From Flavobacteriales bacterium (lineage in GTDB: Bacteria > Bacteroidota > Bacteroidia > Flavobacteriales_F > PHOS-HE28), in assembly GCA_023957375.1 (NCBI GenBank), contig JAMLHB010000001.1:1404245-1468244 (forward strand): a DNA stretch of 64,000 bases, given 5' to 3'. Positions 26,343 to 47,651 of this stretch are shown piece by piece (position 1 is the first letter of the stretch; every line of letters begins with the position of its first letter). The notes below the pieces were generated by a model. It had not been told where the DNA came from. It searched no databases and worked only from the letters and a program-made list of their open reading frames with translations. The position numbers were made by a program, and so were the translations under genes.

Positions 26343-26529
26343 GATCCTTGGTGCCCATGATGCCGACTCCAACCGTTAGATCAGGGAGAGGCAGAAACCC
26401 GACCGAAACGGCGAGCCACCGAGAAGATCCTCGGATCATGGATGTCCCTGATATGTGCCGTAGACACCCGAAACCCCGCGCCAGCGCCCGAGCTTTCCGC
26501 TAGTGCGTAACGGTTTGAAAAACCCCAAA

Positions 26530-26812
26530 GCCCGCGCTCGCGCATTTCGCGAGTGCGTGCCAAGAATAAGGGCCTCTGGCCTGTCTTTTTCCAGAACGAA
26601 CCATGTCCATCACTCTCCCTATCCTCCCCATAGCCCGCGCTCGCGTTTTTCGCGAGTGCGTACCACGCATAGGCCTCTGGCCTGTCTCTTTCCAGAACGA
26701 ACCATGTCCATCACCCCCCAAGCCCGCGCTCGCGTTTTTCGCGAGTGCGCAAACATCCTAAGGCCTCTGGCCTGTCCCCACCCGGAACTTGCAATGCCCA
26801 TCATCCTCCCCA
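26530..26812. repeat. three tandem ~90-bp repeats containing a palindrome and a gene-start copy
   Basis: Three units begin near 26530, 26633 and 26720. Each carries CCCGCGCTCGCG-spacer-CGCGAGTGCG (a palindrome), then AGGCCTCTGGCCTGTC, then a short stretch ending in an ATG followed by codons for MSITLP or, in the last unit, the real start MPIILP of the acetyltransferase gene. A fourth, degenerate copy lies near 26475-26510. The palindrome recurs in reverse orientation at 47434-47460. The rest of 26343-26530 shows nothing else. Confidence 0.85.
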
Positions 26813-36164: not shown

Positions 36165-36261
36165 GTTGTCAGTTGTCAGTTGTCAGTTGTCGGTTGTCAG
36201 TTGTCAGTGGCGCACGTCAGGAAATTCCGCCGAACACCTGACAACAAACAACTGACAACTC
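36165..36261. repeat. GTTGTCA tandem array with inverted counterpart
   Basis: Six 7-bp units (GTTGTCA, one GTTGTCG) run from 36165 to 36206, followed by a spacer with GTCAGG...CCTGAC and the inverse AACTGACAACT ending near 36261. The whole can form a hairpin between porT and the FAD dehydrogenase. Confidence 0.85.
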
Positions 36262-40111: not shown

Positions 40112-41119
40112 CTATTCGGTCAACACGAACTTGAACGACTGACGCTTCCTTGTTCCTTCCACGTGCAACACATACGTGCCGCGTGCCCAATGCTCCACAT
40201 CCAAGCTCAAGCGATCACCCGCGGAGACCCCTTTCCATACATTTCGCCCCACCAGGTCACGGATTCTCACCAAAGTTCCCGGTTTCAATCCCCCTACAGT
40301 AATCCGATGCTGGGCCGGGTTCGGATATAGCCTCACCACTTCGGCCCAACGATCGGGCACGCCCACGGCAAGCGGGCAGCCATCCGGGTCCATCGACACA
40401 CATACGTTGTCGATCACCATGTATCCTTGGGGAAGCCAATTGTAGTTGGCGAAGTGCAGTGTGTCCGTACTGGCATTGTCGAAGGCATTGCCCAACATCA
40501 CATACCTGTAAGCACTGTCCGCCACGAAGCTGCCGCTCACCAAAGTCCAGCCCACCGTGTCGGTGATGATCGATGGGGAGTACACATGGGCGTAGTTCAG
40601 GGGCGGAGGGTACGGATCGCCCAACTCCCATTGCCGAGGCTGCGTGGTGAAGATCATCCCGATGCCACTGGTGGCCACCCAGACTTGTGGTTGAGGTCCC
40701 CCAAATCCAGGACTCGTATAGAAGCTGGCATAGTACCGTACCCCCACCACCAATGGTTCCAGCAATTTGACCATGAAGTACTCGCGCACTTCTGGAAATT
40801 CCCTGTAGGTAATCACCCCAGCGTAGCACTCCCCATCCTGGGGATACTGGAATACCCAATAACTGAGTGGAGAGCCATTGAAGGACCCGTATGGCAGGCA
40901 ACTCACGAAGTGGTCCGGTGTTCCACTAGCGGAGAACCAGCCCAAGGGGCCATCGTCCGGGTAGTACACATCGTTGAACACCCGGCAGGTGTCATATTCT
41001 TCGAAGGAGTGGTTCGGCACGAGGTTTTGTGCTTCGCAGCATGGGGCGGCAACGAACAGCGAACAGCATACCGCCAGGAAGGCCGCACACCGTTCACCGT
41101 TCACCGCCAAGGGAGACAT
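40112..41119 (-). CDS. protein B1: secreted protein with T9SS sorting domain
   Basis: A 335-residue protein. ATG 41119 gives a signal peptide (hydrophobic FLAVCCSLFVAA, ending EAQ). The mature start NLVPNHSFEEYDTC is a common opening of a jelly-roll/carbohydrate-binding-like domain in Bacteroidota, with DTVGWTLVSGSFVADSAYRY later. LYPNPAQHRITVGGLKPG to the C-terminus (FKFVLTE) is a T9SS type A sorting domain. It is the first of four paralogues B1-B4, each upstream of an A gene. Ligand and role are unknown. Confidence 0.86.
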   Translation of the reverse strand: MSPLAVNGERCAAFLAVCCSLFVAAPCCEAQNLVPNHSFEEYDTCRVFNDVYYPDDGPLGWFSASGTPDHFVSCLPYGSFNGSPLSYWVFQYPQDGECYAGVITYREFPEVREYFMVKLLEPLVVGVRYYASFYTSPGFGGPQPQVWVATSGIGMIFTTQPRQWELGDPYPPPLNYAHVYSPSIITDTVGWTLVSGSFVADSAYRYVMLGNAFDNASTDTLHFANYNWLPQGYMVIDNVCVSMDPDGCPLAVGVPDRWAEVVRLYPNPAQHRITVGGLKPGTLVRIRDLVGRNVWKGVSAGDRLSLDVEHWARGTYVLHVEGTRKRQSFKFVLTE

Positions 41120-41339
41120 CGTTCCGTCGTTCGTTCGTGTTGACCGGTTTTGCATCGATCCGGTCAAAAACTGCCGCTGGAGATAATGCCCGCTCGCCGC
41201 GCGGCGTTGTCGGGGGCATGCCAGGGGTGGGGTCCGGTGGCCACGGTGGCGGGGCTTACTTGGCTTGGGCCAGCGCCGTACCTTTGTTCAGCTTTTGTTC
41301 ATCTTACTTTCCGGTTTGGTGGGACATGAGCGACACAGG

Positions 41340-41363
41340 CCCTCGGTGTTAGCGCACCGGGGG
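41340..41363. terminator. hairpin in the B1 upstream spacer
   Basis: CCCTCGGTG pairs with CACCGGGGG (one G-U) over six nt, without a clear U-tract. It lies between the B1 start and the first module; the rest of 41120-41392 shows no other signal. Confidence 0.4.
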
Positions 41364-41392
41364 CTTTATCGTTGGGGCAACACCATGCCGTG

Positions 41393-41578
41393 TTACCTTG
41401 TGGACTTTTGAAAATTGTGTGGCCTGTTGGCCTGTTGGCCTGTTGGCCTGTTGGCCTGTTGGCCTGTTGGCCTGTTGGCTGAGGCCCCTAAAGCCTGGCC
41501 GTCCTTTGAGTGCCTCAGGGCGTCGGTTGGTGAAACGCGTAAGCCAAGCACGATGTTCCTGTGGAATTGCGCGTTCAT
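41393..41578 (-). CDS. mini-ORF, module copy 1 (MNAQ family)
   Basis: A possible 61-residue protein starting MNAQFHRN. TACATTCG on the minus strand (a -7-like box) lies 7 bp before the ATG. The C-terminal part is encoded by the 8-bp tandem repeat and reads ANRPTGQQ twice. Two other module copies hold ORFs with the same MNAQ start, the same upstream sequence and repeat-coded tails. Real expression is uncertain; length and tail differ in every copy. Confidence 0.25.
   Translation of the reverse strand: MNAQFHRNIVLGLRVSPTDALRHSKDGQALGASANRPTGQQANRPTGQQANRPHNFQKSTR
41421..41476. repeat. 8-bp tandem repeat, seven copies
   Basis: GGCCTGTT occurs seven times without a break, followed by GGCTGAGG. 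The unit is not a multiple of three, so slippage would shift any reading frame across it. The same unit recurs at 45384-45420. Confidence 0.95.
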
Positions 41579-41642
41579 GATGGAACGAATGTAACGGAAT
41601 TTATGTGGAAAACATGGGTGGTTGATAAGTCATGCCAGCTGG

Positions 41643-41691
41643 GCGCAGGGTCCGCTATGGATCGGAGATTTTGGTTGGCGAGACCCTGCGC
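41643..41691 (-). ncRNA. module hairpin, copy 1
   Basis: GCGCAGGGTC and GACCCTGCGC form a perfect 10-bp stem around a 29-nt loop. The stem starts at the module boundary (CTCGCGCAGG on the minus strand), directly after the A2 stop codon. Copies 2 and 3 keep the stem; copy 3 has a compensatory pair. Confidence 0.6.
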
Positions 41692-41696
41692 GAGGA

Positions 41697-42245
41697 TCAA
41701 AAGATGAAGCGCATGCGGTCGCCCTTCCAATTGCCGGGATTGTCACTCCATTGGATCACCATGTCGGTCTCTCCGGTACCGCCCTCGCCCCGGCACTTCT
41801 GCCCGATATAGCTCTGGTCCGTATTGCCCGTAAAGGTGATGCCATTGCGCTGCCACGGCCGGTAGCCCCATTGTTCAGCATTACCGTATGTGCCTCCTTC
41901 GGCCAGGTGCAGCCTGCTGAAAGGGCCTCGCGGCGCTTGGCCTAGGAAGCCGTCATCCGGCGTAATCAGCGTGAAGCCGTCCGCAGGGATGTTCGGGAAG
42001 GAGTTCAGCGAGGGATAGGCCATCCTCGGGTTGATCCGCGCACGGAACAGGTTCGCCGTGCTGAAGTCGATCGGCTGGTTGGCTACCGTTTTCAGCAAAA
42101 GCGGGACTGTGCTCCCTGCGGCGGCACCGAGGTATTCTCCTCCACTTATCCCGTTACCACCGGTGTTCCAATCCGGGGTTTGAGCGCTCACGTGGAGCAC
42201 CATTCCATAGGCTGCGATACAGCCCAATATGCTTGTCGTTCTCAT
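41697..42245 (-). pseudogene. protein A2, truncated A-family copy
   Basis: A 182-residue remnant of the A1 type: signal MRTTSILGCIAAYG...SAQ, then NIPADGFTLITPDDGFLGQ, GPFSRLHLAEGGTYGN, and GETDMVIQWSDNPGNWKGD, ending at RMRFIF with a stop where A1 continues RMRFLFTSS. The stalk, S74 chaperone and T9SS sorting domain are missing. The break coincides with the start of module copy 1 (CTCGCGCAGG), so the module interrupted or replaced the 3' part. It could still be secreted to the periplasm but should not be anchored by T9SS. It follows B2 by 35 bp, without the hairpin seen before A1, A3 and A4. Confidence 0.75.
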
Positions 42246-42280
42246 TGGTTTTGTTCATTGATGAGTTGAACTTTCCGATG

Positions 42281-43303
42281 CTACCGCATCACCACGAAAC
42301 GAACATGCTTCACTCCCTTGTCCTTTAATCTGAGCACGTACTCCCCGAGCGGCCATTCCCGCACTGGGATGATCAGCAAGTCACCTGAGCACACACCATC
42401 ATGCACCAACCTTCCGGTGGCATCGTACACCTGCCATTGAGTTCCGTCATCAACGCGCACATGCAACATGTCCGCGACCGGGTTCGGCCAAGTACATCCT
42501 GCCAATGGTACTGGATCAGCTATGGCACTCGTGAATGAGCACCCCTGCCCGGCCCTTGTCACGCAAACGCCATCCACGAAGTAGTAGGCGCCTAAGGAGT
42601 TGCCCGGTATTATGTGCACAGTATCTGTCAGCCCATCGCTGAAGAAATTGCCCAGCACCATATACTGGTAGGCACTGTCCGCCACCAAACTTCCGCTCAC
42701 CAAGGTCCAGTTGGCCGTATCACTGATCACGGAGGTGCTATGCAGGTGCGCATGGTTCCTCAAGCCAAATGCGGGCTGATCGGTATCCGTCCATACGTTC
42801 GGCTGCATGGTGAAGAGCATGCCCATGTTGTTGCACGCCCAAGTAGGTGCCCAATAGCTGCCTCCGAAGGCCACATTGGTGTAGAAGCTGAGATTGTATG
42901 TCTCACCCACCTCCAATGGCTCCAAAAGCTGACAACCGACATATTCCCGAAAAGGCTGATTCAAGCCCACCGAACCATAGGTGTACATGCCAATGTACGC
43001 ACCTCCATCAAAGGCATATTGGAACCCAAAACCATTCAAGGGAACACCCACGAGGCTATCCATGCCGGTACCCGGCACGCAGGTATTGAAGTATTCGGGT
43101 GATTGGCTCCATTTCTCCCAAAAGAGGGGCTTCGCCCCTTCTTGAAAGCCAATGGTGTATGGGCAGGTGTCCGTCAGTTCGAAGCTCGGGTTGGGCACCA
43201 AATTCTGTGCTTCGCAGCGCGAGGAAGCAGCAAACAGCGAACAGCACAGGGCAAGCAGTAAGCCCGCCCTGTACCATCCACCGTTCGTTGTAGAGAGAAG
43301 CAT
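42281..43303 (-). CDS. protein B2: secreted protein with T9SS-like C-terminus
   Basis: A 340-residue B-family member. ATG 43303 gives a signal (AGLLLALCCSLFAAS, ending EAQ). NLVPNPSFELTDTCPY opens the mature protein, TANWTLVSGSLVADSAYQY follows, and the C-terminus has CTWPNPVADMLHVRVDDG, then EWPLGEYVLRLKD, a T9SS type A-like sorting domain. It is the most divergent of the four B proteins. The A2 remnant is 35 bp downstream. Confidence 0.84.
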   Translation of the reverse strand: MLLSTTNGGWYRAGLLLALCCSLFAASSRCEAQNLVPNPSFELTDTCPYTIGFQEGAKPLFWEKWSQSPEYFNTCVPGTGMDSLVGVPLNGFGFQYAFDGGAYIGMYTYGSVGLNQPFREYVGCQLLEPLEVGETYNLSFYTNVAFGGSYWAPTWACNNMGMLFTMQPNVWTDTDQPAFGLRNHAHLHSTSVISDTANWTLVSGSLVADSAYQYMVLGNFFSDGLTDTVHIIPGNSLGAYYFVDGVCVTRAGQGCSFTSAIADPVPLAGCTWPNPVADMLHVRVDDGTQWQVYDATGRLVHDGVCSGDLLIIPVREWPLGEYVLRLKDKGVKHVRFVVMR

Positions 43304-43421
43304 TGTTCGTTGTTCGTTCGTGATGCACCGTTCGACACCGCCCAAGGTAGCATCGTTCCGGTCAAGAGCCCTGTTTGTCTTTCAGTGCCGCCGTGCGTTC
43401 GGGCTTGCGCCGCAGCACCCA

Positions 43422-43446
43422 AGAAAAGACGCCATCGGTGGGCGTC
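43422..43446 (-). terminator. intrinsic terminator after A3
   Basis: On the minus strand GACGCC-loop-GGCGTC is followed by TTTTCTT, 18 bp past the A3 stop codon. The truncated A3 gene thus ends in a good terminator rather than a module. Confidence 0.65.
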
Positions 43447-43463
43447 GCGCTGCCTACTATGCT

Positions 43464-44048
43464 TCAGCAACGCAGATCTATTATACCACCCCGGTCCAAG
43501 GCCGTACAGTTGCCGCCCACGGACCGGGGTTGTCGCAAGCGTTGCTTATCGCTCCACTGGATCACAAAGTCCGTGTTGTCATCCCCGGCGTACTTCTGGC
43601 CGATGTAGCTCTGGTCCGTGTTGCCGGTGAAGGTGATGCCATTGCGTTGCCAAGGCCGGTAGCCCCACTGCTCCGCATTTCCCGTGGTGCCTCTTTCCGC
43701 CAAGTGCAAGCGGCTGAAGGGGCCTCGCGGCGCTTGGCCCAGGAAGCCGTTGTCCGGGGTGATCAGCGTGAAGCCGTCCGCCGGGATGTTCGTGAAGGAG
43801 TTCAGCGAGGGATAGGTCATCCTCGGGTTGATCCGCGCACGGAAGCTCTGGCTTGTCCAAAAGTCAATTGGCCAACTGCCGTCATGGCGCACCTGAAGCG
43901 GGAAGTTGTTGGCCGGGTTAGCATCCCAGCCCAAGAAATTGGTTGTGATTCCATTGTTGCCAAGCACTGAAGCTTGACCAGCCAAGCGGCCAGCCGTCAA
44001 CACCAAGGCACCCATCACCAGGTACTTCAGTTTGTCCTTCGTTCTCAT
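43464..44048 (-). pseudogene. protein A3, truncated A-family copy
   Basis: A 194-residue remnant. ATG 44048 (MRTKDKLKYLVMGALVLTAG) gives a signal ending AGQA; the shared region runs through GWDANPANNFPLQVRHDG, ADGFTLITPDNGFLGQ and FSRLHLAERGT to DFVIQWSDK, after which the sequence departs (QRLRQPRSVGG) and stops. The stalk, S74 and sorting domains are absent. Unlike A2 and A4 there is no module at the break, but a terminator follows. It is preceded by the conserved B-A hairpin. Confidence 0.75.
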
Positions 44049-44081
44049 GTCCTTTCGTGTTTGTTGGTTTACTGAAAGGAC
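44049..44081 (-). ncRNA. conserved intercistronic hairpin, B3-A3 junction
   Basis: Minus-strand GTCCTTTC and GAAAGGAC form an 8-bp stem directly before the A3 ATG. Compared with the A1 hairpin, one base is added on each side so that pairing is kept. Confidence 0.6.
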
Positions 44082-44097
44082 CGGAACGATGCCTCTC

Positions 44098-45108
44098 CTA
44101 TTCAGCCAATACGAACTTGTGCATCTCCAACCGGCCGTGGTAGCGCAGGCACAGCGCATACGCCCCGCGCGCCCAGTTCCCAACATGCAGGACCCAACTA
44201 CCGCCTGTCACCCTTCCTTGCCACACCAATCGCCCCAACGCGTCCAGCACCTGCGCTTCAGCTCCGTCGCGGTGCTCCACCACCAACAGGTCCCGTACCG
44301 GGTTCGGGAACAAGATGGGGGCTGTCGCTCCGTTGACCCCGATTCCCTGTGCTCGTTCACAACCGTTGGGATCGAGCGACACGCATACCGCATCAACCAA
44401 GGTGTATCCCCATGGATACCATGGGAACACGGAACTTGGGTCCGCAAAGTGCAGCGTATCGGTGAGGGCGTTGCTGAAGAACTGGCCGATCATCACGTAC
44501 TGGTAGGCGCTGTCCGCCACAAAGCTGCCGCTCACCAGGGTCCAGCCCACTGTATCCGCGAGTATCTGCGGATAGAGAATGTGCGCATGGTTGGGCGGTG
44601 CGGGATAGGGGTCGCCCCAAATCCAAGGGCGGTCCTGCATGGTGAAGAGCATGCCCACCTTGTCATTGGCCAGCCAGATCTGCGGGTATTCGGCATTGCC
44701 ACCGAATGCCGCGTTGGCCCTGAAACTGCAGTAATAGGTCTGTCCTATTACCATGGGCTCCAGCAGGGGTGCCTGGATCCATTCCCTTTGCTCGTCCATA
44801 CCATTCTGATGGTACGTGAGTATGCCGGCACAAGAAGCCCCTTCAAATGGTTCCTGAAAGGTGAGGAAATTCATGGGCAAGCCCTCAAAATTCCCATAAG
44901 GCAAACAACTCTGAAAATAATCAGGGGTTCCATTGGCGCTGTGCCACTGGAGGGGGCCATAAAGGCCGAAGTCAGCTTGCACACAGGAGTCGGATTCCTC
45001 GAACCCCGGGTTGGGCACCAAGTTTTGGGCCACGGCCAAAGCAGGGGCAAGTACGCCGATCAGGGCTACTGCCGCATACCGGAAGAACCGCGTACCATTC
45101 AGGCACAT
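44098..45108 (-). CDS. protein B3: secreted protein with T9SS sorting domain
   Basis: A 336-residue B-family member. ATG 45108 gives a signal ending LAVAQ. NLVPNPGFEESDSC opens the mature domain; FGGNAEYPQIWLANDKVGML and DTVGWTLVSGSFVADSAYQY follow, and ILFPNPVRDLLVVEHRDG to MHKFVLAE is the T9SS type A sorting domain. It is very similar to B4 along its whole length, indicating a recent duplication. The upstream region also matches that of B4 (CATGCATGTCTTCCC and GGCGGCCGGGAG). Confidence 0.86.
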   Translation of the reverse strand: MCLNGTRFFRYAAVALIGVLAPALAVAQNLVPNPGFEESDSCVQADFGLYGPLQWHSANGTPDYFQSCLPYGNFEGLPMNFLTFQEPFEGASCAGILTYHQNGMDEQREWIQAPLLEPMVIGQTYYCSFRANAAFGGNAEYPQIWLANDKVGMLFTMQDRPWIWGDPYPAPPNHAHILYPQILADTVGWTLVSGSFVADSAYQYVMIGQFFSNALTDTLHFADPSSVFPWYPWGYTLVDAVCVSLDPNGCERAQGIGVNGATAPILFPNPVRDLLVVEHRDGAEAQVLDALGRLVWQGRVTGGSWVLHVGNWARGAYALCLRYHGRLEMHKFVLAE

Positions 45109-45380
45109 GTCGCTGTTGTTGTTCGTATTGGCCGGAGGCATCGCTCCGGTCCGTGAAAGTTACAATGCAACGCGCAACAAGCGCGCATGCATGTCTTCCC
45201 GTGCGGCGGCCGGGAGGGGCCGGGGCGATCAAATCTTCATCACCCCGCGCTCAGGTGGAGCGCGCCTATCTATGGAATGGTGGTGCAACTTCCATGGCGG
45301 AAAGCATTGAAAGTTGTTGAAAACGAAAACGCCGCAGCCTCACGGCCACGGCGAATGCAACTACCTTGTAGGGTTCGAAA

Positions 45381-45470
45381 CTACCTGTTGGCCTGTTGGC
45401 CTGTTGGCCTGTTGGCCTGTGGCGCAACGCGCAAGGCAAGCAAAGAGGGTATGGAAAATTGCGCGTTCAT
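45381..45470 (-). CDS. mini-ORF, module copy 2 (MNAQ family)
   Basis: A possible 29-residue product starting MNAQFSIP and ending in the repeat-coded QANRPTGQQANR. It is in frame with the A4 remnant, so it could also be read as the tail of a fusion. TATATTCG lies just upstream as a weak -7 box. Low confidence as a gene. Confidence 0.2.
   Translation of the reverse strand: MNAQFSIPSLLALRVAPQANRPTGQQANR
45384..45420. repeat. 8-bp tandem repeat, about 4.6 copies
   Basis: The same GGCCTGTT unit as at 41421-41476 but with fewer copies, showing copy-number difference between duplicated modules. The 45142-45380 spacer upstream of B3 otherwise shares segments with 46870-47080. Confidence 0.95.
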
Positions 45471-45535
45471 GCTGGAACGAATATAACGGAATTTATTCGG
45501 GATGATAGCGGTGATGGATAAGTAATGGGATCTGG

Positions 45536-45584
45536 GCGCAGGGTCCGCCATGGGTCGGAGATCCTGCTTGGCGAGACCCTGCGC
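45536..45584 (-). ncRNA. module hairpin, copy 2
   Basis: GCGCAGGGTC and GACCCTGCGC form the same 10-bp stem as copy 1, with a loop of different sequence. The module edge (CTCGCGCAGG) directly follows the A4 remnant. Confidence 0.6.
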
Positions 45585-45588
45585 GAGT

Positions 45589-45737
45589 AGTAAGTTGTTG
45601 GTCACCGTGTTATCCCAACCAAGGAAATCGGTGGAAGCGCCGCTGTTACCCAGCCAAGTGACTTGTCCCTGTGCATGGCTCGCGCTCAGCACCAATGCAC
45701 CCCATACAAGGTGCCTGAATTTTGTTGTTGTAAACAT
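45589..45737 (-). pseudogene. protein A4, N-terminal fragment
   Basis: Only about 50 codons of the A family remain: ATG 45737, MFTTTKFRHLVWGALVLSAS, signal end GQV, then STDFLGWDNTVTNNLL, corresponding to residues about 1-50 of A1. The frame then enters module copy 2 and stops at 45381. It is the shortest A remnant, again cut exactly at CTCGCGCAGG. It is preceded by the B-A hairpin and lies 45 bp after B4. Confidence 0.75.
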
Positions 45738-45770
45738 GGCCTTTCGTGTTTGTAGTTCTTCGAAAGGACC
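45738..45770 (-). ncRNA. conserved intercistronic hairpin, B4-A4 junction
   Basis: Minus-strand GGTCCTTTCG and CGAAAGGCC pair with one bulged T directly before the A4 ATG, resembling those before A1 and A3. Confidence 0.5.
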
Positions 45771-45782
45771 AGAACGATGCTT

Positions 45783-46811
45783 CTATTCCGCCAAAACGAA
45801 CTTGTGTACTTCCGCGCGCCCACGCCACTCAAGGCGCAGCACATACGTGCTCCGCGCCCATGCCCCAACGGGCAATACCCACCGATCACTTCCCACCACA
45901 CCTTGCCAGATCACTCGCCCCACAGCATCCATGGCCACCAGCCGTGCCCCTTTCCGCCCACCTACTACCAATTGGTCGTATGCCGGGTTGGGGAATAGCG
46001 CCGGTCCACCCGGAAATTCCTCACTTACCCCTTGTCCCAGATCACATCCATCCGGGTTAGGCGATACACACACCGCATCGATCAAGGTGTAGCCGCGGGG
46101 AGCCCATGGGAAGACCGAGTTCGGGTCCGCGAAGTGCAGCGTATCCGTCAAGGCATTGCTGAAGAACTGCCCGATCATCACGTACTGGTAGGCGCTATCC
46201 GCCACGAAGCTGCCGCTCACCAGGGTCCAGCTCACCGTATCCGCGAGGATCTGCGGATATTGGATGTGCGTATGATCGGGCGGCACCGGGTAGGGATCAC
46301 CCCAAGCCCACGGGCGGTCCTGCATGGTAAAGAGCATGCCCACCTTGTCACTGGCCAACCAGATCTGCGGATACTGGGCATTGCCGCCGAAGGCAGCATT
46401 CGCACGGAAGCTGCAGTAGTAGGTCTGCCCCACTACCAAGGGTTCCAGCAAAGGAGCCATGATCCATTCACGGTATTCGGCGGAACCATTCTGATGGTAC
46501 GTGAACATCCCTGCGCACGAGGAACCCTCGAATGGCTCTTGGAAAGTGATGAAATTCATGGGCAACCCGAAGGCACTACCATACGGCAAACAGCTCTGCA
46601 AGTGATCCGGGGTCCCATTGGCGCTATGCCAATAGAGAGGGCCATCCACTCCAAAGCCAGCTTCTGAGCAGGAGTCCGCCTCTTCGAACCCCGGATTGGG
46701 TACCAGGTTCTGGGCAAGAAGGGGTAAGGCGCAAGGAGCAAGGCACAAGACGAACAGCGCGCGTTGCATCGCCGTCCTCCATGCCTTGCTCCTATTGCCC
46801 GTCGTGGTCAT
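45783..46811 (-). CDS. protein B4: secreted protein with T9SS sorting domain
   Basis: A 342-residue B-family member, closest to B3. ATG 46811 gives a signal ending LPLLAQ; ATG 46769 (MQRALFVLCLAPCALPLLAQ) gives a more compact one. NLVPNPGFEEADSC, FGGNAQYPQIWLASDKVGML, DTVSWTLVSGSFVADSAYQY and ALFPNPAYDQLVVGGRKG to the C-terminal EVHKFVLAE mark the same domains as in B3. It is the first gene in the direction of transcription of the array. Confidence 0.86.
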   Translation of the reverse strand: MTTTGNRSKAWRTAMQRALFVLCLAPCALPLLAQNLVPNPGFEEADSCSEAGFGVDGPLYWHSANGTPDHLQSCLPYGSAFGLPMNFITFQEPFEGSSCAGMFTYHQNGSAEYREWIMAPLLEPLVVGQTYYCSFRANAAFGGNAQYPQIWLASDKVGMLFTMQDRPWAWGDPYPVPPDHTHIQYPQILADTVSWTLVSGSFVADSAYQYVMIGQFFSNALTDTLHFADPNSVFPWAPRGYTLIDAVCVSPNPDGCDLGQGVSEEFPGGPALFPNPAYDQLVVGGRKGARLVAMDAVGRVIWQGVVGSDRWVLPVGAWARSTYVLRLEWRGRAEVHKFVLAE

Positions 46812-47076
46812 TGTTCGTCGTTCGTATCGGCCGGAAGCATCGCTCCGGTCCGTTAATGTACAATGCACGGCGCAAGAAGCACGCATGCATGTCTTCCCTT
46901 GCGGCGGCCGGGAGTGGCCGGTGGTCTTCAAGCCACCACCATGGTACACGACCATGGTACCTGTGCGTGGTCAGGTGGTACTTGCTCCATGGCAAATTGG
47001 ATTGGAAGTTGTGGAAAACAAAAACGCCGCAACCAATGGGCCACGGACAATGCCAGTACCTTGTTCAACTGAAAAA

Positions 47077-47271
47077 TTACCTGTGGCCTGTGGCCTGTGG
47101 CCTGTGGCCTGTGGCCTGTGGCCTGTGGCCTGTGGCCTGTGGCCTGTGGCCTGTGGCCTGTGGCCTGTGGCCTGTGGCCTGTGGCCTGTGGCCCTCTGGC
47201 CCTCTGAGCCCGCCGAAGGGCGGCGCAACGCGCAAGCCAAGCAAGGAGGCTATGTGCAATTGCGCGTTCAT
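47077..47271 (-). CDS. mini-ORF, module copy 3 (MNAQ family)
   Basis: A possible 64-residue product starting MNAQLHIA with a C-terminal tail ATGHRPQ repeated by the 7-bp array. TACATTCG stands before the ATG as in copy 1. Because the tail is low-complexity and copy dependent, coding status is doubtful. Confidence 0.25.
   Translation of the reverse strand: MNAQLHIASLLGLRVAPPFGGLRGPEGHRPQATGHRPQATGHRPQATGHRPQATGHRPQATGHR
47081..47192. repeat. 7-bp tandem repeat, sixteen copies
   Basis: CTGTGGC repeats sixteen times, then degrades into CCCTCTGG units. It is the counterpart of the 8-bp GGCCTGTT repeats of the other modules with one T lost per unit. Confidence 0.95.
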
Positions 47272-47327
47272 GATGGAACGAATGTAATGAAATTTATAGA
47301 GTGTGATGGCAATGTGGATAAGTCGTG

Positions 47328-47376
47328 GCGCAGGATCCGCGAAGAGCCGGAGGTTCCAGTTGGCGAGATCCTGCGC
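47328..47376 (-). ncRNA. module hairpin, copy 3 with compensatory change
   Basis: GCGCAGGATC and GATCCTGCGC form a 10-bp stem. Relative to copies 1 and 2 (GGGTC/GACCC) the third-from-inside pair changed on both sides, so pairing is conserved. In 47377-47433 nothing further is seen. Confidence 0.6.
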
Positions 47377-47433
47377 GAGGGTTGAATGGAAATGCGGCAT
47401 TTTTGGGAACCGCCGGAGGCGAACCGAACGTAC

Positions 47434-47460
47434 CGCACTCGCGAAAAACGCGAGCGCGGG
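47434..47460. repeat. dispersed palindrome (REP-like), inverse of the 26.5-kb repeats
   Basis: CGCACTCGCGAAAAACGCGA and seven further bases are the exact reverse complement of the palindrome in the 26530-26750 repeats. It sits 4 bp before the orphan FAD-dehydrogenase fragment. Confidence 0.8.
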
Positions 47461-47464
47461 CATG

Positions 47465-47651
47465 GGCTACCGTACCAACGAGGCCGTGCTCGTTGCGGTG
47501 GAATCACGCACCAGTTCACCGGTGCGCATTCCGCGCGATCCGCAAACCCTGCAACACCCGCAGGTGCGCGGGCTGTTTCCCTGCGCGGAGGGGGCAGGCT
47601 ATGCCGGTGGCATCGTGAGCGCGGCGATGGACGGACTGCGCGTGGCCGGGG
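47465..47651 (+). pseudogene. orphan 3' fragment of the FAD dehydrogenase gene
   Basis: A 187-bp copy of 37611-37797 with a single mismatch (C37619/T47473). It encodes GYRTNEAVLVAVESRTSSP to DGLRVAG, the C-terminal 62 residues of the FAD dehydrogenase, then diverges into ACVA and a stop. It lacks the FAD-binding domain and cannot be functional. It is in the same orientation as the intact gene and 9,854 bp from it, bounding the T9SS array. Confidence 0.9.

Follow-up and report, generated by a model that had tools for sequence, protein, structure and literature searches.

What is achieved by a hairpin, the start of a short open reading frame (ORF) and a variable number tandem repeat (VNTR) that recur together, in the same order, at three places in one stretch of bacterial DNA? 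This question is raised by a window of 64,000 nucleotides, the whole stretch of DNA analysed here, from a Flavobacteriales bacterium (PHOS-HE28; assembly GCA_023957375.1, contig JAMLHB010000001.1, positions 1,404,245 to 1,468,244). The source genome comprises 3.83 Mb in 4 contigs, and the relatives that bear the same modules are metagenome-assembled genomes of Flavobacteriales. In all three window modules, each on the minus strand, the order is hairpin, TACATTCGTTCCATCATGAACGCGCAA, VNTR; in full, the parts are the hairpin, about 45 variable bases, the conserved block GTTACATTCGTTCCATCATGAACGCGCAA, the start of a short ORF encoding MNAQ, and the tandem repeat. Each module consists of two separable parts, namely an upstream hairpin resembling a repetitive extragenic palindrome (REP) and a downstream leader with the MNAQ block and the VNTR. 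It is probable, in our judgement, that the module combines an atypical REP hairpin with a phase-variable leader serving the secreted-protein gene downstream. The parts are located as follows.

41643..41695, minus strand: REP-like hairpin of copy 1, with a 12-bp stem, one bulged T and a 22-nt loop (covariance model R1, 77.7 bits; DNA fold z -5.1)
45536..45588, minus strand: REP-like hairpin of copy 2, found where a paralog of gene B is truncated (R1, 72.9 bits; z -4.9)
47328..47380, minus strand: REP-like hairpin of copy 3, with a GGATC/GATCC stem (R1, 66.7 bits; z -4.5)
41393..41578, minus strand: leader ORF of copy 1 (MNAQFHRNIV...), 61 aa, running through the VNTR
45381..45470, minus strand: leader ORF of copy 2 (MNAQFSIPSL...), 29 aa, with its stop directly after the VNTR
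47077..47271, minus strand: leader ORF of copy 3 (MNAQLHIASL...), 64 aa, with its stop directly after the VNTR
41420..41479, minus strand: VNTR of copy 1, 8 bp x 7.5
45384..45420, minus strand: VNTR of copy 2, 8 bp x 4.6
47080..47193, minus strand: VNTR of copy 3, 7 bp x 16.3

The three modules had been recognized in a first-pass annotation made from the letters and ORFs alone, and their presence is confirmed by BLAST, by covariance-model scores of 67-78 bits and by DNA-fold z-scores of -4.5 to -5.1. The conserved sequence block described there is present in the modules, but copy 2 reads CCAGC, not CCATC. BLAST of the modules against their own genome gave E-values as low as 1e-61, far beyond chance, and a search with a 168-base consensus identified eight full copies in this genome, plus hairpin-only copies. 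With one genome per species in the comparison, this consensus found module copies in 13 of the 45 genus genomes searched, the own genome included. Besides the modules, hairpins are found singly, in tandem arrays and in alternating arrays, and the MNAQ block occurs without a hairpin at loci L050 and L051. Since each of the two occurs without the other, the module is a composite and not a single element.

The consensus of 39 hairpin copies is [CG]TC[CG]-CGCAGGGTC-T/A-CGC-loop-GCG-GACCCTGCG, with a 12-bp stem and one bulged base, and 95.5% of the stem cells are paired across these copies. The shared stem reported earlier is kept in all three window copies, but it is 12 bp long with a 1-nt bulge instead of 10 bp. 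The covariation claimed for it holds in part: the GGATC/GATCC change in copy 3 is truly compensatory, but a double change is seen at just 2 of the 12 pairs among the 39 members, and the hairpin is therefore kept mainly by sequence and little by covariation. The loops, which had been described as differing, do not vary freely, as CGCCAAC and CTCCGA are conserved inside them. The covariance-model search for further copies that the first-pass annotation suggested had a positive outcome: at E<=0.001, model R1 matched the own genome at 44 sites, and 31 of the 45 genus genomes contain matches. These hairpins lie mostly between genes (27 of 31 sites are outside genes predicted by codon usage, compared with 33% of random positions).

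The hairpins are linked to REP-associated tyrosine transposases (RAYTs). Nine Y1_Tnp genes are present in the own genome, and a RAYT subfamily that matches NF047646/PF01797 is found in many genomes of the genus; NF047646 is the best model, yet it remains below its cut-off (62.9 of 80 bits). The HUH and catalytic Tyr motifs are kept in most members of this subfamily. Hairpins adjoin 17 of the 19 loci of the subfamily, commonly no more than ~150 bp away and in many cases as inverted pairs, while 11 more distant Y1 loci gave a single weak and distant hairpin match. The 53-nt form seen in the window stands beside the RAYTs of genomes G023 and G042, and the own-genome RAYT at C3:236772 carries a 34-nt short form. 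Hairpin and RAYT together are a REP-RAYT system, and the window hairpin, judged by its sequence, is a putative non-autonomous atypical REP, similar to those that border RAYT (TnpA-REP) genes across the genus. The earlier suggestion of a mobile hairpin element consequently fits the hairpin, as REP-like and RAYT-linked, but not the MNAQ and VNTR part.

Two other readings of the tandem hairpins were dropped, the attC/integron reading for want of an attC-type GTTRRRY core by eye, and that of clustered regularly interspaced short palindromic repeats (CRISPR) because the 57-bp spacing leaves spacers no room. Several further observations concern such repeats. At L056 (G042:C191:2200-3296), two different hairpins alternate about every 129 bp, resembling the bacterial interspersed mosaic elements (BIMEs) of other bacteria. 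A second palindromic repeat, CGCACTCGCGAAAAACGCGAGCGCGGGCAT, is found beside copy 3 (window 47425-47465), in a 101-bp tandem duplication (window 26523-26714) and near modules in the relatives' loci L033, L035 and L055; it is probably another REP-like family. In two species, REP hairpins lie within what is apparently the same glycosyltransferase gene (L010, G000:C2:111624; L061:440-546, G042:C246), and at L061 the reading frame is apparently unbroken.

The downstream part of the module is tied to a gene family. All eight own-genome modules lie upstream of, and on the same strand as, genes whose products have a mature N-terminus like QNLVPNPSFE. The three in the window are the following.

40112..41167, minus strand: secreted LVPNPSFE-family gene after copy 1, with a type IX secretion system (T9SS) sorting domain above cut-off
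44098..45141, minus strand: secreted LVPNPSFE-family gene after copy 2, with the sorting domain below cut-off
45783..46955, minus strand: secreted LVPNPSFE-family gene after copy 3, with a sorting-type tail by eye only

The T9SS sorting model TIGR04183 scored 31.1 bits (cut-off 23) for the gene after copy 1, was weak for copy 2 and went undetected for copy 3. The family has 10 members in the own genome, and one of them, at window 42281-43345, is without a module. Family members lacking the REP show a comparable layout. Locus L109 (C1:1299380), which has no REP and an unrelated leader, keeps the same order of parts, namely TATATTCG, ATGAAC, (GCGCAGA)8.9, ACAAGGTAG, a terminator and the gene. 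In the relative G037, without REP at the locus, the order is TACATTCG, ATGAACGCG, (GGACCGCT)32, ACAAGGTAG and the gene. For a genus-wide test, 69 upstream regions of the family, a kilobase each, were picked by protein and not by module. Repeats of at least 3 exact copies are present in 28 of the 69, with many unrelated units and mostly 370-570 bases ahead of the mature N-terminus; 497 kb of control sequence held 8 such repeats. The period is 7 or 8 in 43/43 arrays, that is, in all examined loci with at least 3 copies.

Conserved boxes are found around these repeats, and the ones on the sense strand resemble promoters.

41586..41593, minus strand: promoter-like -7 box TACATTCG of copy 1, of the TAnnTTYG type enriched before genes
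45478..45485, minus strand: promoter-like -7 box TATATTCG of copy 2, of the same gene-front-enriched TAnnTTYG type
47279..47286, minus strand: promoter-like -7 box TACATTCG of copy 3, again of the TAnnTTYG type enriched before genes

In most loci, the TAnnTTYG box and ATG typically stand ~40-55 nt ahead of the VNTR. TAnnTTYG occurs at most 25 bases from the ATG in 11 of 204 genes and in 0 of 204 internal controls, and this enrichment at gene fronts in the own genome makes it plausible as a -7 box. In Flavobacterium psychrophilum, the consensus for sigma-A is TAnnTTTG (PMC9723704). On the other side of the repeats, the reading frames follow a pattern: exactly one of the three meets a stop within 28 bases of the repeats, and the remaining two continue for 90 bases or more, beyond where a terminator generally lies. 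This holds for 15 of 22 non-redundant loci. Among 400 shuffles, the mean was 3.3 such loci and the maximum 9; the reverse strand gave 0/22, and random positions in the same regions gave 19%. Terminators are also found here.

45330..45353, minus strand: intrinsic terminator of copy 2, an attenuator candidate, class A
47027..47046, minus strand: intrinsic terminator of copy 3, an attenuator candidate, class A
41338..41365, plus strand: terminator-like hairpin of copy 1, with its T-run on the opposite (plus) strand, class B

Sense terminators are present in 10 of the 22 non-redundant loci (shuffles 0.2), generally starting ~24-36 bases past the repeats. The first-pass annotation had also considered a small-peptide cassette; its form is found, with a promoter-like box, an ATG and an ORF that extends across the repeats, but the encoded peptide shows no conservation of sequence. 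Because layout and frame pattern are conserved and the peptide sequence is not, a regulatory leader is indicated.

From this anatomy we infer transcription, translation and slippage in the living cell, and an on/off effect, as follows. RNA would start at the TAnnTTCG box, and translation of the short ORF would begin at its ATG and continue into the repeats. The units measure 7 or 8 bp, neither of which is divisible by 3, and their slippage would change the frame in which the ribosome exits the VNTR. In the closed frame, the ribosome would stop within ~28 nt, ahead of the terminator, and transcription would end (off). In either of the two open frames, the ribosome would overrun the terminator hairpin, termination would fail and the gene would be transcribed (on). 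With the repeat numbers present in the assembled sequence, this scheme would place copies 2 and 3 in the off state and loci L008, L035, L055 and L109 in the on state. Copy 1 and the other class B loci, without a sense T-run, may work differently.

Several points weigh against this proposal. In about half of the loci, class B with window copy 1 included, the T-run belongs to the other strand or a clear terminator is missing. The frame currently used is the closed one in ~14 of 25 loci, weakly above one third, and was not used as evidence. Two leader copies have TAA at codon 5 or 6. The loci are related, so p-values are too small (optimistic). Background VNTRs with at least ~3.5 copies, taken from a 400-kb sample of the own genome (the background as a whole was drawn from the own genome and RAYT loci only), are also mostly of 7-8 bp, and the period alone is therefore no proof of a frame effect. 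As to the hairpin, the canonical 5' GT[AG]G foot was tested for and is absent, the foot being [CG]TC[CG], and for this reason the element is named an atypical and not a canonical REP. Separately, 7-bp tandem repeats of GTTGTCA are found elsewhere (window 36165-36208; G000:C1:1289926-1289994), and periods of 7-8 bp seem to be favoured in the own genome generally.

A second set of boxes, on the opposite strand, allows for a different explanation.

41394..41401, plus strand: opposing TAnnTTGY box TACCTTGT of copy 1, facing the VNTR
45362..45369, plus strand: opposing TAnnTTGY box TACCTTGT of copy 2
47057..47064, plus strand: opposing TAnnTTGY box TACCTTGT of copy 3

In 27 of 41 loci, a TAnnTTGY box on the opposite strand points towards the VNTR, with typically 13-19 bases between the box and the edge of the array. 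The background rate of this box is about 0.012 per 60 bases, and 0 of 41 loci have it in sense orientation within that interval. The VNTR could thus be a variable spacer between face-to-face promoters, sense TAnnTTCG and antisense TAnnTTGY, and act by collision or antisense RNA and not by frame. TAnnTTGY equals motif SM5, mapped in F. psychrophilum (PMC9723704), and the class B terminators lie on the TAnnTTGY strand. However, SM5 was mapped in another genus, most copies show no evident -33 element, and both the pattern of one closed and two open frames and the class A sense terminators are left unexplained. This explanation is regarded as rather unlikely. Within the phase-variable leader reading, the opposing box may add antisense RNA control, and for class B loci this is perhaps the main control. 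In class B loci, a TACCTTTG box is retained, and ~60 bases after it comes a strong terminator on the strand opposite to the gene (window 41280-41368, plus strand); the pair is possibly a short RNA of ~80 nt.

From the REP as far as ~41280, the copy 1 block shares 94.6% identity across 424 bases with a block at C1:166096, while the genes flanking the two are unrelated or distant (downstream protein identity ~22%). Since the blocks are near-identical and their flanks differ, such blocks must be moved or converted from one locus to another, and the REP marks one of their edges. Other module loci retain the same neighbours across species, which points to mostly vertical inheritance. At copy 2, a truncated gene-B paralog (45600-45738, minus strand) ends at the hairpin, and gene B itself is found at 41697-42245 and 43464-44186. 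Module copy C3:441374 (L005:1657-1900) abuts a LuxR-type regulator gene seemingly without its 5' part, and the orthologous locus in G042 (L030) likewise has a remnant. The modules could be a neutral by-product, duplicated 5' regions of paralogs in which the repeats are functionless, slippage-prone leftovers and the REP is a passenger. Modules accompany gene-family duplicates, some of them at the same locus across species, leader peptides decay, and similar repeats are found elsewhere in the genome. Such leftovers do not account for unrelated repeat units at the same place in those 28 family members, for the conserved boxes on both sides of the repeats or for the non-random frame pattern, and we consider this explanation improbable.

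A conserved functional small peptide, MNAQ..., is largely refuted and scarcely credible. The ATG and the first 4-5 codons are nearly invariant in ~22 copies, but besides the early stops mentioned above, frame-shifting indels are present in four leaders (L030, L034, L043 and L045), the frames at the end of the VNTR are mixed, and L109 has its unrelated leader at the same position. A structured non-coding RNA or riboswitch that would comprise hairpin and conserved block is equally hard to sustain, since the strong and significant hairpin is also found by itself, in tandem arrays and next to RAYT genes, the MNAQ block exists without it, covariation is weak, and an Rfam search of the window gave no match at gathering score. 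The structured RNA with covariation of the first-pass annotation is likewise not upheld, as a possible second stem, AACGCGCAA/TTGCGCGTT, was rejected because its 3' arm decays without compensation. A perfect DnaA-box-like TTATCCACA in copy 3 (47313-47321, minus strand) was dropped as a DnaA box, being absent from copies 1 and 2.

More tentatively, and with less than even confidence, it is suggested that this Flavobacteriales genus may control a secreted-protein family by dozens of independent leader switches, in which position, period, opposed boxes and frame design are kept and the repeat sequence is replaced. With the sequence replaced at a kept position, arrays would have been born repeatedly at the same spot. 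If the leader reading is true, leader-peptide attenuation that randomly switches secreted proteins would be an established feature of an uncultured genus of Bacteroidota. On/off switching by leader-peptide attenuation has so far been proven for streptococcal pili, and no report of it for T9SS cargo was found in the literature searched. Many natural variants of one switch, with units turning over at a fixed place, would permit direct tests of how contingency repeats arise and are lost. In addition, a REP-RAYT family with a different foot sequence provides material for the study of RAYT target recognition.

Both parts of the module can be compared with known systems. As in described REP/RAYT systems (PMC6006769, PMC3733652, PMC3116915), the hairpin is a short imperfect palindrome with a bulge, with numerous extragenic copies, tandem and inverted groups, and inverted copies flanking an HUH-Y1 RAYT gene. 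It differs in its 5' foot ([CG]TC[CG] and not GT[AG]G) and in the 53-nt form with a long conserved loop. RAYTs with 'atypical' structures have been placed in subclass 2.6, mostly Bacteroidetes, with a median HUH-to-Tyr spacing of 82 (PMC6006769); the spacing of 81 aa in the own-genome RAYT is close to this. The leader resembles frame-shifting simple-sequence contingency loci, such as those of Haemophilus influenzae (PMC2651432), in that unstable short repeats are tied to surface or secreted products, but in the present case they occupy a leader of their own, upstream of the gene and not within it. The other comparison is with the pil1/pil3 attenuator of Streptococcus gallolyticus (PMC3894217), where gain or loss of a 5-bp repeat in pil1 puts the stop codon of the leader on one side or the other of a terminator and thereby switches the pilus genes. 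Class A loci share with it a promoter, here a promoter-like box, a short leader ORF with frame-shifting tandem repeats, a terminator shortly after, frames that stop before or beyond this terminator, and a surface or secreted gene downstream. The units are 7-8 bp and vary by locus here, whereas they are 5-bp GCAGA in pil1/pil3; there are many loci per genome, genus-wide, with a Bacteroidota-type promoter box and an opposing TAnnTTGY box. The sense terminator is clear in about half of the loci here, and the system is known from sequence, while pil1 has been proven by experiment.

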